Part shown: piece by piece, positions 366 to 7,621 of the stretch
Layout: each line of letters begins with the position of its first letter
How positions within the stretch are numbered: position 1 is the stretch's first letter
Assembly (NCBI GenBank): GCA_030620115.1
Contig: JAUXFG010000168.1
Location: 1 to 7,785, forward strand
Length of the DNA stretch: 7,785 nt
Origin: Candidatus Fermentibacterota bacterium
GTDB lineage: Bacteria > JAFGKV01
Direction of reading: 5' to 3'
Position numbers and translations under genes: made by a program
The notes under the pieces: model-generated
Database searches by the model: none
Told to the model about the DNA's origin: nothing
What the model saw: only the letters and a program-made list of their open reading frames with translations

Positions 366-1331
366 TCAATGGTGATCGATCGTGTCCGTCACGGGAGCCC
401 AGAAAAAAACGCGCTCATTTGTCCTTCTCTGTTGTATCGCCCCCTCTTCAAGCAGTAGATCAAGGAGCTTGATTGCTTCATGTCGGTGTATCTCCATTGC
501 TCGAGATACATCCTCAACCGAGCATGGTCTCCGTGAGAGCATGGCGAGGATTCTCGTCTTCAGTAGGGAGGCCTGTTGCGTACTTCCTCCGGCAACCGAG
601 CATCTCTTGAAATCCGCGATGACTGCGGCATCAGGACCAAATCCGTGGGCAAAACGCTGGAGGGATCGGGCAGAACAGGGAGAGACAGAAGCAGATGGAT
701 GCGGTCGCACCGGGGTATTAATATCGACGTTGCCAGGGGCGAGCGTCTTCACCAACCTGGTGAGATAGCCCAATTCGGCGCCAGAATCATTCATCCCCTT
801 GATGATCATGACCTCCAATCTGACATCACCTCTGAACCGGCTTATGGCATTCATCAAACCAGTAGTCATCCGATGGAATGTCACGGCTTGACAAGGCTGA
901 TTCACTCGTTCGAATGTGACCTCGTCGCCCGCATCCAGCGAAGGCGCGAGGATGTCAACAGCCATGATGTCGGCCAGCACATCATCAAGAAAAAGCGTCC
1001 CCCCATTGGTGAGGAGAACCACCGGGATCTCGGTCAATTCCTTCAAGATCCGGATGAGCCGTCCAAGCCCGGCATAGAGGGTTGGCTCTCCGGAGCCTGC
1101 CAAGGTGATCACATCTGGGGATGGCCCTGTTGCAAGGGCAGCCCGCACATCACCAACAATCTCCTCAACGGGATAGAAAAGCCGTCGTGTGATGGTCTTC
1201 TCAGTGGTCCCGCCGAGCTGGCAGTAGATGCAGTCGTAGCTGCACACCTTGTGTGGAACCACATCAACGCCAAGTGAGAGCCCAAACCGCCTCGACGGAA
1301 CGGGTCCATACACACGAATACGGCGGCTCAT
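366..1331 (-). CDS. Radical SAM protein, TYW1-like COG0731 family, C-terminal winged helix
   Basis: This 321-residue protein has a radical SAM [4Fe-4S] motif CxxxCxxC at Cys30, Cys34 and Cys37, inside CSYDCIYCQLG. The family signature GPVPSRRFG at residues 9-17 precedes it. Residues 77-84 carry a GSGEPT motif of the SAM-binding type, and NTPVRP at 205-210 is also typical. These features match COG0731, the family that includes the archaeal wyosine enzyme Taw1; bacterial members have no settled function, so the substrate is unknown. Residues about 255-311 look like a winged helix-turn-helix, suggesting nucleic-acid contact. The ATG start is supported by the family's conserved N-terminus, although no clear ribosome site is visible. 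A 97-bp gap separates it from the upstream M42 peptidase gene. It converges on tRNA-Glu, which may be chance. Confidence 0.9.
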   Translation of the reverse strand: MSRRIRVYGPVPSRRFGLSLGVDVVPHKVCSYDCIYCQLGGTTEKTITRRLFYPVEEIVGDVRAALATGPSPDVITLAGSGEPTLYAGLGRLIRILKELTEIPVVLLTNGGTLFLDDVLADIMAVDILAPSLDAGDEVTFERVNQPCQAVTFHRMTTGLMNAISRFRGDVRLEVMIIKGMNDSGAELGYLTRLVKTLAPGNVDINTPVRPHPSASVSPCSARSLQRFAHGFGPDAAVIADFKRCSVAGGSTQQASLLKTRILAMLSRRPCSVEDVSRAMEIHRHEAIKLLDLLLEEGAIQQRRTNERVFFWAPVTDTIDHH

Positions 1332-2807: not shown

Positions 2808-3989
2808 TCAAGAAGAAGACAACTTCAATGGTGCCCAGGCAGGGCAATACACTTCATATTCTGTGGGCCAATTCTTGACCACTCTTCCCGCATGATCAAG
2901 CAAGAGGATCTTCCAGAACCCTCGCCCTCGTCGTAGACCATCGGTCACATTGGCGGCAATGTACTTGCCATCTGGAGACCATACCAGTCTTCCACGCCTC
3001 ATGGCCTTGGGCAACGGGATTTCTGTCACGCTGCCGGGGATATGAGGATCGGGCCAGATGAATATGGCCAATGGGAGCGGCCGTTCACGAAGTGCCGCCA
3101 GCTCACCTCGAGATGACCATATGCCTGAGACGAAACGGCCGCGATCTTCCCCTGCCAGAATCACGGGCCTGCTCACTTCAAGATCGATGGTTTCCAATCT
3201 CGCGCGTTTCCTCGTGCTCTGCTCGGCAGAGCTGTACACCAACGAAGCTGAATCGCGAGACCATCGAGCCTTGAATTCGGTCCGGTGATCAGAGGCCATC
3301 ACGACCTCCATTCGACCGGAATCAACATCTATGATTGCCAGGTCCCATTGCCGTTGCTCTTCCTGCCTGATCTGACACACCAGACGGCGTGAGTCGGGCG
3401 ACCATGCCGGCCGTATGAGACGGAAACCCATACGGCCATGCTCAGTGGGCGATCCAGTGAGAAGATCCCTGACAATGACACCCGTGCGCGTGCTGTCCCT
3501 CGATACATAGGCCAATTTCCTCCCATCGGGGGAAAGCGCATACCAGAGTTCTCCCGGAAGCGCCGGGCCATAGAGAGTATCCTCCCTGTCCGACTCCAGA
3601 TCAAGCCTGCAAATCATCACCCGCTTGTCTGGAAGCCCCCTGGCCTCGAAGTAGATCCAGCGATTCCCACCTCCCCAGGCGGGCCACATCTCCGCACGAT
3701 CCGGAGTATGGGTCAGCCTTCTGAGGAGTCGTCCCGCTCCATCGAGAAGCAAAAGATCAGAATCAAGGCCCTCAGAGGTCGAAACCACAATGCGGTATTC
3801 GCCCAGATCCGAGTGGCCGCCACAGCCCTGACCAAGAGCAAGGATGAGGAAGCAAAGCAGTATTCCTCCCGATCTCTCGCATGTCACATTCGCGACATGC
3901 AATGACCCCCGACCCTTTTTCAGTAGAGTGGCGAGCCATGCCCATACAAAAAAGGCTGCCACCCATCTGCCTGCTCCACGCTTCCTCAT
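2808..3989 (-). CDS. TolB-like (PD40) beta-propeller protein, membrane- or lipid-anchored
   Basis: This 393-residue protein has repeated TolB/PD40-type blades from about residue 60 to the end, each marked by a motif like WSPDG or a variant: MWPAWGGG, ALSPDGRK, PAWSPDSRR, ARWSRDSA, VWSPDGKY and CPAWAPL. Six or seven blades are likely. The family usually works outside the inner membrane as a protein-interaction propeller; this is not necessarily the Tol-Pal TolB itself, since no tolQRA or pal is nearby. The start is placed at the ATG whose first three bases overlap the coaC stop as ATGA, implying translational coupling; a TTG 12 bases upstream is the alternative. The N-terminus is odd: a hydrophobic stretch at 9-23 and a second at 43-55 ending in GQGC, with a possible but imperfect lipobox Cys56. 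The true mature start could be at the second segment. Confidence 0.85.
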   Translation of the reverse strand: MRKRGAGRWVAAFFVWAWLATLLKKGRGSLHVANVTCERSGGILLCFLILALGQGCGGHSDLGEYRIVVSTSEGLDSDLLLLDGAGRLLRRLTHTPDRAEMWPAWGGGNRWIYFEARGLPDKRVMICRLDLESDREDTLYGPALPGELWYALSPDGRKLAYVSRDSTRTGVIVRDLLTGSPTEHGRMGFRLIRPAWSPDSRRLVCQIRQEEQRQWDLAIIDVDSGRMEVVMASDHRTEFKARWSRDSASLVYSSAEQSTRKRARLETIDLEVSRPVILAGEDRGRFVSGIWSSRGELAALRERPLPLAIFIWPDPHIPGSVTEIPLPKAMRRGRLVWSPDGKYIAANVTDGLRRGRGFWKILLLDHAGRVVKNWPTEYEVYCPAWAPLKLSSS

Positions 3990-4561
3990 CGTGGAGCACA
4001 AAGCAGGCGGGCCACAATCTCCATAATACTCTCCGGCTCCACCATTCTTCCCGCGCCCACATCGCCGCAGGCCAGATCTCCTTCCTCGGGACCAATTATC
4101 TCGTGCCCAAAAGCCTTGAGCCGATCAACATTGGCTTGGACAAGAGGGTTGCGCCACATCTGATGATGCATGGCAGGAGCCAACAGTATCGGACACCTCA
4201 CTGCGAGACAGACACATGCCAGCAGATCATTTCCCATCCCCGCCGCCATGCGAGCGATAAAGTCCGCAGATGCGGGAGCGATTACGAGGGCATCAGCTGA
4301 CTCGGCAAGCATAAGATGCGGTGGTTGCCCATCTGGTGATGCTTCGAAAAGCTCGGTGTACACCCGAGCACCACTCAAGGAAGAAAATGTATGAACAGTC
4401 ACAAACCGGGCGCCTGCCTCGGTGAGGATGACTCTTACTCGAGCCCCGCCCTTGACGAGAAGTCGCGCCAAATGGGCGGCCTTGTAAGCCGCGATGCTTC
4501 CGGTCACGCCCAAGATGAGCTCTTTCCCTTCCACCCGCCATCGTCGGTTGTCAGTCGTCAT
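3986..4561 (-). CDS. coaC: Phosphopantothenoylcysteine decarboxylase, stand-alone
   Basis: This 191-residue HFCD-family flavoprotein decarboxylates 4'-phosphopantothenoylcysteine to 4'-phosphopantetheine using FMN, in the cytosol. It shows the N-terminal VTGSIAAYKA flavin-binding motif (about 18-27), His82 in PPHLMLA as the likely active-site histidine, the PAMHHQMW motif at 129-136, Cys165 in ACGDVG, and GRM at 171-173. The usual Asn of PxMNxxMW is His132 here. I recall the same change in actinobacterial CoaBC proteins, so it is not a sign of inactivity. The ATG at 4561 is chosen because the family's N-terminus starts there and a GGAG lies 6 bases upstream. An upstream in-frame ATG at 4672 would translate a dispersed repeat. 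The protein ends after the CoaC domain with no CoaB part, which is encoded upstream at 4835-5497. Confidence 0.93.
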   Translation of the reverse strand: MTTDNRRWRVEGKELILGVTGSIAAYKAAHLARLLVKGGARVRVILTEAGARFVTVHTFSSLSGARVYTELFEASPDGQPPHLMLAESADALVIAPASADFIARMAAGMGNDLLACVCLAVRCPILLAPAMHHQMWRNPLVQANVDRLKAFGHEIIGPEEGDLACGDVGAGRMVEPESIMEIVARLLCAPR

Positions 4562-4579
4562 TGCAGACTCCAGATTCTT

Positions 4580-4611
4580 CCCATTCCCGCATTCCAGCAT
4601 TCCGAAATTCC
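4580..4611. repeat. 8-bp tandem repeat, four units
   Basis: Four consecutive 8-base units share the core ATTCC (plus strand: CCCATTCC, CGCATTCC, AGCATTCC, GAAATTCC). They sit just upstream of the coaC start, in the repeat-rich spacer after coaB. Confidence 0.65.
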
Positions 4612-4628
4612 CCTCATCCTCCCCCCTC

Positions 4629-4729
4629 AGATTCTTCGGTCGCTTCGCTCTCTCAGAATGACACGTGTTCACGCAACCACTTATGCACTACCACTGTCAT
4701 TCTGAGCGTCTGCAAGGAGCGAAGAATCT
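4629..4729. repeat. Long inverted repeat of a dispersed intergenic type
   Basis: The outer arms AGATTCTTCG/CGAAGAATCT (4629-4638, 4720-4729) match over 10 bp. The inner arms CTCAGAATGAC/GTCATTCTGAG (4652-4662, 4696-4706) match over 11 bp. The arms are joined by less well paired GC-rich sequence, and a 33-base central region contains the palindrome ACACGTGT. From memory, this TCATTCTGAG...GAAGAATC pattern recurs in intergenic DNA of many environmental bacteria. A further direct copy of CAGATTCTTC lies at 4571-4580. Confidence 0.75.
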
Positions 4730-4834: not shown

Positions 4835-5497
4835 TCATCCTCCATCCACCAGATTCCATAGGTAGGCCGCCAACTGTTCACGACCTGAGATCTCGGCAAT
4901 TATCCTCTCCGATCTGTCCACGATCAGACAACGGTAGTGATCTTTGCCGACCCATTCCTGGAGATTCGCCACCACCACCTCCGCATGGGTCCGCTTGCCA
5001 AGGAGGGCAGCTCGCCTTACCAGTTCAGATCGGTCGATCCCCCGTTCCAATTTGAACCCCACCAAACGCGCCCCCGGAAACATGGCGGGCAATAGGTCGA
5101 TTATCTTGGGTGTGGGGGAGAGCTCCACATGCCATGGAATCCCAGATGGTCGTTTCCCCTCGTCAACCATGTGGGGCGCATAATCCAAAACCGCCATTGC
5201 ATGGAAGATGACGGCAGGGCTTACTCGTGTCTCCACATCTTCCAGGGCGGGGATCAACTGGTCCAACCACGCAACTTGGGTCTGATTCACTATGCCGGAC
5301 CATGTGGACTCCACAGGCAGATCCGCGGTGAACGGCCCACGCAGTAGCTCGATCTGCCATCCCCTCTTTGCTCCCTCGGCTGCCAGTGCGACACCTAGTG
5401 CCCCGGTGGAGCTATTCATGATAAACCTGACTGCGTCCAATCGAACCCTGGTAGGGCCGGCCGTGATGATTGCCGCCTTGCAATGATCACTCGTCAT
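4835..5497 (-). CDS. coaB: Phosphopantothenate-cysteine ligase, stand-alone
   Basis: This 220-residue enzyme joins cysteine to 4'-phosphopantothenate with a nucleotide triphosphate, the step before CoaC. The N-terminal ITAGPTR (11-17), VRFIMNSSTGALG (23-35) with Asn28 in the acyl-nucleotide-binding position, AVLDYAP (102-108), Lys115 in EGKRPSG, SPTPKIID (127-134) and LVGFKLE (145-151) follow the DFP/CoaB fold. The TPKII and GFKLE forms resemble the single-domain ligases of streptococci more than the fused CoaBC, which usually reads NPDI and GFAAET. There is no CoaC domain. It begins 34 bases after the HEAT-J gene; a weak AGG lies before the ATG. Transcription order is coaB then coaC, the reverse of the domain order in fused CoaBC. 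Confidence 0.9.
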   Translation of the reverse strand: MTSDHCKAAIITAGPTRVRLDAVRFIMNSSTGALGVALAAEGAKRGWQIELLRGPFTADLPVESTWSGIVNQTQVAWLDQLIPALEDVETRVSPAVIFHAMAVLDYAPHMVDEGKRPSGIPWHVELSPTPKIIDLLPAMFPGARLVGFKLERGIDRSELVRRAALLGKRTHAEVVVANLQEWVGKDHYRCLIVDRSERIIAEISGREQLAAYLWNLVDGG

Positions 5498-5531: not shown

Positions 5532-6947
5532 CTACTTGGGAATGGCCTTGGTGAGAGTCTCATACGCGACATTGACGCGTTTTGCCTCCTCTTCCGCCTT
5601 CATTTTCTCCGCATCAGGAAGGCTTCCAACAACATCAGGATGAAAACATCGCATGAGCCCCCGCCAGGCATGTCGCACCTCGCTCCTGGTTGCGCCGAGA
5701 TCGAGGTTGAGCACCTCGTACGCTTCCGCCAGGTCCATGCCGCCAATGGAAGGCATCGCGGGCTCTTTTTTCTTCTCTTGGGTTTTCGCCCGATCGTAGG
5801 TTTCCCAGTGCTTGCGCCGCTTCGGCTTGTAACGACGCCGCAGTTCCCCCGACGGGTCTATGGCTTCTATGGCTTGTTGTGCTCTCTCGCGGACAAAATC
5901 TATCGGATCCTTCAGTGCACCAAGCAAGTAGGGAATGGCCGACTTCTCTCCCAATTTCCCTAATGCTTCCGCGGCGTATCGGCGCACGCACCACTCATTG
6001 TCTTCAAGGACTTCAAGGAGTTGTTCAAGCGCCTCATGCGATTTGATGAAACATAGTGTCTTGGCACAGTACTCCCTCATGCCGGAATCGCTCTCCCGGA
6101 GCCCGCGAATCAGCGCAGGAACGGCCACAGGGCCAAGATCCACCAGTGCTTTCACCGCTTGATCTCGAACATGCCGTACTTCATCAGCAAAGAGGGAAAT
6201 CAAGGGTACTACCGCCTTCTCGTCGCCTGTCTTGCCCAGCGCAGCGGCGCTCTTCATACGTACTCGATCGTCATTGTCCTGCAATGCCCCCATGAGCCCG
6301 GCGGCGGCATCTTTCCCCCCGAGCAGGCCAAGGGCATCCACCGCAGCCACACGAACACCCGGTTCCTTATCATTAAGCGCCACCATGAGGGATGCCACTG
6401 ATCGTTGATCGCCCATGGTGCCGAGAAGAACCGCGGCATTCTGTCGCACCCATCGGCGCCCATCCATGAGTGCAGACATCAATGCAGGTATCGCAGTCAC
6501 ACCAAGAGCGCCGATGGACTCCTGAGAGCTCTGAGGTAATCTTGGCACATCCAGCAGTTCGGTGATGGCCGCAGCCCCCTTTGCGCCACCAATCTTTGTA
6601 AGGCAGCGCGCGACCTCATCTTTGATTCTTCGTTCATGGCGTCCCAAAAGACCCGTAACTGCGGGAAGCGCTGATTCGATTCTGAGCGTGCCGATGCTAT
6701 CCAACGCGGCGATGATCACATCCTGGTCCGCGTCCCGCAGCAAAAGAACCAATGGCTCCCGAGCCGTTTCCTCCGTCAGATGGGATGCCAGATGTGCAGC
6801 CTGCGCTCGAATGGGAGATTCCTTGGCCTCGAATGCTTCGAAGAGGGTCTTCTGCCATCCATCGCGTTTGGCCTGCACCAATGATTGCAACTCTTCCGTG
6901 GTGAGCGTGTGACCTCCGAAGAATTTGCCAAACCCAAGTCTCGCCAT
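5532..6947 (-). CDS. HEAT-repeat protein with C-terminal J domain
   Basis: This 471-residue protein has two clear parts. Residues about 44-365 are tandem HEAT repeats of the PBS-lyase/EZ type, roughly 31 residues each, with recurring VRxxAAxALGxLG-like helices (for example 167-178, 198-210, 321-333). A basic linker at 366-395 (RRRYKPKRRKHW and KTQEKKKEP) leads to a J domain at 405-467: EAYEVLNLDLGA, then HPD at 436-438, then a final helix ending near AYETLTK. The HPD motif stimulates the ATPase of DnaK-type Hsp70. HEAT solenoids bind proteins, so a client-specific or localised co-chaperone is a reasonable inference. There is no signal peptide or membrane segment. The ATG is preceded by AGGGA with 7-base spacing. 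It lies 171 bp downstream of the MshEN gene and 34 bp upstream of coaB. I recall no named protein with this architecture. Confidence 0.92.
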   Translation of the reverse strand: MARLGFGKFFGGHTLTTEELQSLVQAKRDGWQKTLFEAFEAKESPIRAQAAHLASHLTEETAREPLVLLLRDADQDVIIAALDSIGTLRIESALPAVTGLLGRHERRIKDEVARCLTKIGGAKGAAAITELLDVPRLPQSSQESIGALGVTAIPALMSALMDGRRWVRQNAAVLLGTMGDQRSVASLMVALNDKEPGVRVAAVDALGLLGGKDAAAGLMGALQDNDDRVRMKSAAALGKTGDEKAVVPLISLFADEVRHVRDQAVKALVDLGPVAVPALIRGLRESDSGMREYCAKTLCFIKSHEALEQLLEVLEDNEWCVRRYAAEALGKLGEKSAIPYLLGALKDPIDFVRERAQQAIEAIDPSGELRRRYKPKRRKHWETYDRAKTQEKKKEPAMPSIGGMDLAEAYEVLNLDLGATRSEVRHAWRGLMRCFHPDVVGSLPDAEKMKAEEEAKRVNVAYETLTKAIPK

Positions 6948-7118: not shown

Positions 7119-7583
7119 TCAGAAACGCCCCCTCAGCCCAGGCAATGTCAACTCATAGTAGCTGCGAATCACGCGATCAACATCGCTCTTCGGGCAAACG
7201 ACCTGCTTGATGGCAAGCCTTGTCATGTTCTCCAATTCCTGGACAACTTCTTGTTTCAAGGGATACACCACGGCCAGCGAAAGCATCCCTCCCATACGGT
7301 CAACGGGTACCAGCTGGTGTTCTTTTGCAAACTCAGGTGGGATGTACTTTATCACCTCGACATCAAGATCCAGCCCATCCAAATCCAAATAGGGAAGGCG
7401 CAAATGGTTCGCCACCAGATGAATCAGATCCCTCTCGGAAAGATATCCCATCTCGATGAGAAGTGAGCATAGTTTCTTTCCGTGATGCTCTCTCTGCAGC
7501 TCTGCCGCCTCTTCGACATTTTCCCGGCTCACATATCCGTGTTGGACCAGTAGATCTCCAACTCTCACGTGCGGTACGACCAT
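7119..7583 (-). CDS. Stand-alone MshEN / T2SSE_N domain protein (no ATPase)
   Basis: This 154-residue protein corresponds to the N-terminal part of GspE/PilB-type secretion or pilus ATPases. Residues 7-31 carry a first MshEN half-motif, RVGDLLVQHGYVS then EEAAELQ. Residues 36-68 carry a second, KKLCSLLIEMGYLS then LRLPYLDL. Residues 80-145 follow the T2SSE_N pattern, with YIPPEFAKEHQLVPV and a final SYY. It stops there, without Walker A, Walker B or the Cys-rich zinc motif of the ATPase. MshEN domains bind cyclic di-GMP through RLGxxL-type motifs. The first motif keeps Arg7 and Gly9, but in the second the usual Gly is Cys39. The ATG at 7583 is chosen over an upstream TTG at 7610 because AAGGAG lies 6 bases before it. 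It is probably cytosolic and may regulate an ATPase encoded elsewhere. Confidence 0.85.
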   Translation of the reverse strand: MVVPHVRVGDLLVQHGYVSRENVEEAAELQREHHGKKLCSLLIEMGYLSERDLIHLVANHLRLPYLDLDGLDLDVEVIKYIPPEFAKEHQLVPVDRMGGMLSLAVVYPLKQEVVQELENMTRLAIKQVVCPKSDVDRVIRSYYELTLPGLRGRF

Positions 7584-7589
7584 CTCCTT

Positions 7590-7595
7590 CTCCTT
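7590..7595 (-). promoter_or_regulatory. Ribosome binding site of the MshEN protein gene
   Basis: AAGGAG lies 6 bases before the ATG at 7583. A second AAGGAG directly abuts the ATG. This site decides the start against the upstream TTG. Confidence 0.75.
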
Positions 7596-7621
7596 CACCT
7601 GCGCAAACAACTGCCTCTGTC

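Follow-up and report, generated by a model that had tools for sequence, protein, structure and literature searches.

We found that a single gene on the minus strand of the window (the whole 7785-base stretch of DNA analyzed here) joins a solenoid of HEAT repeats to a C-terminal J domain in one protein of 471 aa (positions 5532..6947), hereafter HEAT-J. It is a real gene that has been conserved between genera. Its product is fairly likely to be a specialized J-domain co-chaperone of class C: the solenoid would hold a partner, and DnaK would be recruited by the J domain on its tether.

A conserved gene in a conserved neighborhood

The HEAT-J frame starts from an ATG at 6947 and runs without interruption to 5532 on the minus strand, and the same stretch read in frame on the forward strand is interrupted by stops. 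Both Pfam HEAT_2 and Pfam DnaJ matched the product above cut-off, in agreement with the original prediction that HEAT and J modules share one reading frame, for which no strand had been named. Full-length orthologues (57% and 56% identity) were present in two other genomes, G001 and G002, which are congeners of each other and belong to the same family as the window's genome but to a different genus. HEAT-J was therefore found full-length in all three species of the phylum in the collection, and the earlier reservation that homologues might never carry both domains together did not hold. The E-values, together with conservation across three genomes, exclude a chance origin of this architecture. 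Comparison of the window protein with its relatives revealed 59-62% identity in the HEAT part, 54-57% in the J domain and 33-44% in the linker, and the linker appears at this level to be looser than the other two parts. Between G001 and G002, dN was 0.15 and dS 1.7 for the HEAT part, and pN was 0.17 against a saturated pS of 0.82 for the J domain, which indicates purifying selection on both HEAT and J.

The gene order was shared as well. In all three genomes we observed MshEN, HEAT-J, coaB, coaC, a TolB-like propeller gene and an M42 peptidase gene, with a radical SAM gene coming next in the window and G001, and an APH-type kinase gene preceding the block in G001 and G002. HEAT-J and coaB were separated by 34 nt in the window and 33 nt in G001; thus, these two genes are likely to be co-transcribed.

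The upstream gene (7119..7610, minus strand) encodes a stand-alone MshEN protein of the c-di-GMP receptor type (163 aa; Pfam MshEN E 6e-20; NCBIfam c-di-GMP motif 47.2 bits vs a cut-off of 38). It was adjacent to HEAT-J in all three genomes; the gap measured 171 nt in the window, 8 nt in G001 and about 8 nt in G002. The MshEN fold is that of a c-di-GMP receptor and contains a 24-residue motif (PMC5013675). The first such motif was intact in all three genomes, and the second was degenerate in the window (Gly at position 3 replaced by Cys and the final Gln by His), which makes c-di-GMP binding by the window's MshEN protein doubtful. Downstream, coaB (DFP domain; 4835..5497, minus strand; Pfam DFP E 6e-26) occupies the same position in the relatives and is followed by coaC (flavoprotein; 3986..4672, minus strand; Pfam Flavoprotein E 2e-27; N-terminal half of coaBC_dfp E 1e-57), for which the start at these coordinates is probably internal. 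In the window and both relatives, coaB comes first and coaC is a gene of its own next to it, whereas the common CoaBC fusion has its domains in the reverse order. The conserved block further contains the TolB-like propeller gene (2808-4001, minus strand) and the radical SAM gene (366-1331, minus strand), whose product has a possible C-terminal winged helix. A tRNA-Glu gene (anticodon TTC) was located at 237-311 on the plus strand. In G001 (contig C89, L105:1681-3803), a nucleotidyltransferase gene followed by the APH-type kinase gene lies just upstream of MshEN and HEAT-J, a pair that presumably resembles the MurU-AmgK cell-wall recycling pair.

HEAT solenoid and basic linker

The AlphaFold2 model of the whole protein, built from an alignment of the three orthologues, had a mean pLDDT of 84.6 and a pTM of 0.65. 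Its Foldseek matches included alphaRep HEAT proteins, with a best E of 7e-13, and the A (scaffold) subunit of PP2A. The solenoid spans residues 17-363 (5859..6899, minus strand) and comprises approximately 11 repeats plus a capping helix, with pLDDT mostly 81-95. Tandem matches above cut-off to HEAT_2 (E 2e-64, 214 bits) and HEAT_PBS (90 bits), combined with a solenoid of helix pairs, identify the repeats as HEAT repeats of the EZ/PBS-lyase type. A HEAT array had been anticipated at about residues 44-365; the array is indeed there, but it begins earlier, since the modeled helix pairs extend from residue 17. Ahead of the solenoid, residues 1-12 (6912-6947, minus strand) show an FGLGKLFKG-like start that was kept in all three orthologues and was modeled with low confidence, and they may form a short targeting or membrane-touching segment.

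The solenoid is connected to the J domain by a linker (residues 366-404; 5736..5852, minus strand). The basic character proposed for residues 366-395 was found over the entire linker in all three orthologues (net charge +8, +4 and +6), with a drifting sequence. Residues 379-402 had pLDDT values below 50 and are predicted to be a flexible tether, modeled with low confidence.

J domain

The J domain (residues 405-468; 5544..5735, minus strand) was identified by Pfam DnaJ (residues 409-467; E 9e-9, with 35.7 bits exceeding the curated cut-off of 27.8), by AlphaFold2 (pLDDT 83 for the J domain alone) and by Foldseek. Its modeled helices cover residues 406-412, 421-433 and 445-468. When the J domain alone was used as the Foldseek query, the matches were J domains with modest E-values (best 8.8e-3), and chain B of 5nro, a J domain bound to DnaK, superposed well, with 1.5 A rmsd over 58 columns. 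The HPD motif (residues 436-438; 5634..5642, minus strand) lies between helices II and III and, as predicted, was intact; it was also invariant in the three orthologues. Helix II (residues 421-433; 5649..5687, minus strand) had a net charge of +3 in every copy and kept the basic residues R425, R/K429 and R433, which removed the previous concern that it might be devoid of them. Residue 429, the equivalent of DnaJ position 26, is R in the window and K in both relatives; experiments have shown that J-Hsp70 function requires a basic helix II residue at this position as well as HPD (PMC1906734). Of the residues of E. coli DnaJ, all three copies keep Y7, A24, W at 25, a basic residue at 26, L28, HPD, K48, Y54 and L57, and the contact positions that have changed are R27 (to G/D/E), R36-N37 (to VV) and F47 (to A). 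A DjlA-like protein (L064) also has Ala at position 47.

With a J domain above the Pfam cut-off, an intact HPD and a positive helix II with a basic position 26, HEAT-J has the sequence hallmarks of a J-domain protein (JDP). Pfam and NCBIfam revealed HEAT and J only; the G/F region and the zinc finger and beta-sandwich domains of classes A/B were absent, which places it in class C as defined previously (PMC8215388). It is not a class A DnaJ, as its J domain is C-terminal, G/F and Cys-rich zinc domains are absent and the NCBIfam DnaJ score was 27.6 bits vs a cut-off of 377. Nor is it a DjlA: Pfam gave no TerB match, a HEAT solenoid is found instead, and the NCBIfam DjlA score, although higher than that for DnaJ, was 34.5 bits vs a cut-off of 162, with the C-terminal part matched. 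As for the origin of the domain, the closest outside J domains among the matches listed in the J-profile search were N-terminal DnaJ-type and, prominently, C-terminal TerB-J domains, on proteins without HEAT; TerB was confirmed in all four of the TerB-J proteins checked. A tree calculated for 33 J domains united the three copies of HEAT-J in one group (95/85) that fell with C-terminal J domains and apart from DnaJ, although the deeper fork was weak (65/78) and one neighbor was a long branch. On these sequence comparisons, a DjlA-type origin of the HEAT-J J domain seems likely, but is not proven. The C-terminal position of the J domain had been taken as a hint of client delivery; it carries no particular weight in this respect, as such a position is ordinary in DjlA/TerB-J proteins (PMC11709261).

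Distribution of HEAT-J outside the phylum

A full-length profile search of 386 genomes (~260 families) gave only three full-length matches (E ~1e-277), all from one phylum, followed by HEAT-only proteins from 1.6e-42 onward. The expectation that many unrelated lineages would show the same domain order was thus not borne out, and a search with the J profile did not reveal such a wide family among its listed matches either. Among the 103 fetched loci, no other ORF contained both HEAT and J, and none of the fetched J loci had a HEAT ORF, which leaves no case of split HEAT and J genes as neighbors there. Only HEAT was found in the plasmid collection and in the HEAT-rich phylum of G130, and the scan of named species genomes returned one HEAT-only match. 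We found no literature on bacterial HEAT-J proteins. As the searches were seeded from HEAT-J itself and hence favored its homologues among the matches listed, independent fusions elsewhere could be missed. On present evidence, the HEAT-J family appears to be restricted to one tiny phylum. The biology of this phylum is little known, which limits the present impact of the protein.

DnaK and J-protein complement

The window's genome contains two full-length DnaK genes, on contigs C67 (L108) and C198 (L107). The former is adjoined by grpE and dnaJ, and no J gene was detected near the latter within the 8 kb examined. Only two J domains scored above cut-off in this genome, those of class A DnaJ and HEAT-J; HEAT-J could be the sole dedicated J protein of the organism, and one may speculate that it pairs with the C198 DnaK. 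Two DnaKs and two J proteins offer a setting in which to ask how a DnaK system divides general and dedicated work. G001 has a third J protein, which was absent from the J matches of the other two genomes: a cut-down DnaJ-like protein of 202 aa (contig C183, L104:3591-4199) with an N-terminal J domain and a shortened (half) Cys-rich zinc region.

Proposed function and alternative explanations

Class C J proteins determine where Hsp70 acts. If HEAT-J works in this way, the solenoid would bind one protein or complex, and a flexible basic tether of some 25-35 residues would carry the J domain, whose helix II and HPD would dock on ATP-bound DnaK and trigger ATP hydrolysis. DnaK would thereby be clamped onto the solenoid's partner, leading to its remodeling, assembly or disassembly. 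HEAT-J may in this way deliver a partner to DnaK; the MshEN protein, CoaB and CoaC, encoded by its operon neighbors, are candidates for this role. This reading is favored by the presence of both modules in one gene across three genomes and two genera, by purifying selection on each of them, by the invariant HPD and the net +3 helix II, by the match of the J fold to DnaJ J domains including that of 5nro, and by the occurrence of DnaK in the same genome, where DnaJ and HEAT-J are the only J proteins. On the other hand, the DnaJ contact residues at positions 27, 36, 37 and 47 have been replaced in HEAT-J, and the neighboring genes form no coherent pathway. However, the Ala at position 47 is shared with the DjlA-like protein, DjlA works with DnaK (PMC8215388), and J-Hsp70 interfaces differ between pairs (PMC7289447). 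Class C J proteins are heterogeneous and often have protein-interaction domains (PMC8215388).

Several other explanations were considered. The solenoid might bind unfolded polypeptides broadly; HEAT-J would then be a general co-chaperone that, as a second DnaJ-like protein, assists one of the two DnaKs. The complement of two DnaKs and two J proteins is compatible with this, since the class A DnaJ lies beside the C67 DnaK and the C198 DnaK might use HEAT-J. However, Pfam detected neither a G/F region nor a zinc finger or beta-sandwich client domain, the gene is found in a fixed non-chaperone neighborhood in both genera, and HEAT solenoids are usually specific for folded partners or peptides, so we consider such a broad role unlikely. 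We also judged it improbable that HEAT-J is a c-di-GMP or pilus/secretion-type scaffold that binds the MshEN protein, with the J domain bringing DnaK to remodel the machine in response to c-di-GMP. The gene directly upstream in all three genomes, with its intact first motif, would fit such a role, but the second motif is degenerate in the window, and CoaB, CoaC, the TolB-like protein and the M42 peptidase are linked equally, so adjacency does not point to MshEN in particular.

It is quite unlikely that the J domain is no longer active with DnaK and survives as an ordinary protein-binding module or a relic. The four substituted contact positions and the modest Pfam score would agree with decay, whereas HPD, W25, basic 26, A24, L28, K48, Y54 and L57 were kept in all copies and dN was well below dS across the domain. 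Finally, the window is an entire contig of a genome in 296 contigs, which could raise the suspicion of a chimeric assembly in which two genes, one for HEAT and one for J, had been joined. This was excluded by the identical fusion and gene order in two other genomes, which leaves an artefact with a negligible probability. Within the preferred class C reading, a bolder version has only a slim chance of being correct: a dedicated assembly or disassembly co-chaperone, convergent with RME-8, whose phylum-specific solenoid marks one complex for DnaK, perhaps under the control of the MshEN neighbor, and which the second DnaK has as a J protein of its own.

Comparison with known systems

Several known proteins share part of the HEAT-J design. 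The bacterial class C JDPs DjlA and TerB-J likewise have a C-terminal J domain in which the loop leading from HPD to helix III is longer, but they carry a TerB domain and a membrane segment where HEAT-J has the solenoid. AlphaRep-like HEAT-repeat proteins have the same repeat type and fold, but no J domain. AtcJ of Shewanella, a bacterial class C JDP that acts with AtcC/AtcB, is devoted to specific partners (PMC6715715), as we suggest for HEAT-J; however, it has only 94 aa, recruits its partner by a 21-residue tail and is not fused to a solenoid. The nearest precedent in design is the eukaryotic endosomal JDP RME-8/DNAJC13, in which a J domain is combined with HEAT-containing alpha-solenoids and which removes the coat component HRS/ESCRT-0 from endosomes, thereby limiting the ESCRT-0 coat (PMC9642905). 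RME-8/DNAJC13 differs in having more than 2,200 residues, five solenoids, a J domain in the middle of the protein, IWN linkers and PH-like lipid-binding domains, and neither PH-like nor RME-8 families were among the Pfam matches of HEAT-J, which differs in size and domain order. We regard the resemblance as an analogy in design only and claim no common origin. Since RME-8/DNAJC13 already combines both modules, the HEAT plus J design is not categorically new. Nevertheless, HEAT-J is plausibly a new, lineage-restricted class C J protein with a HEAT solenoid, and the fusion represents a clear and testable design for targeting.
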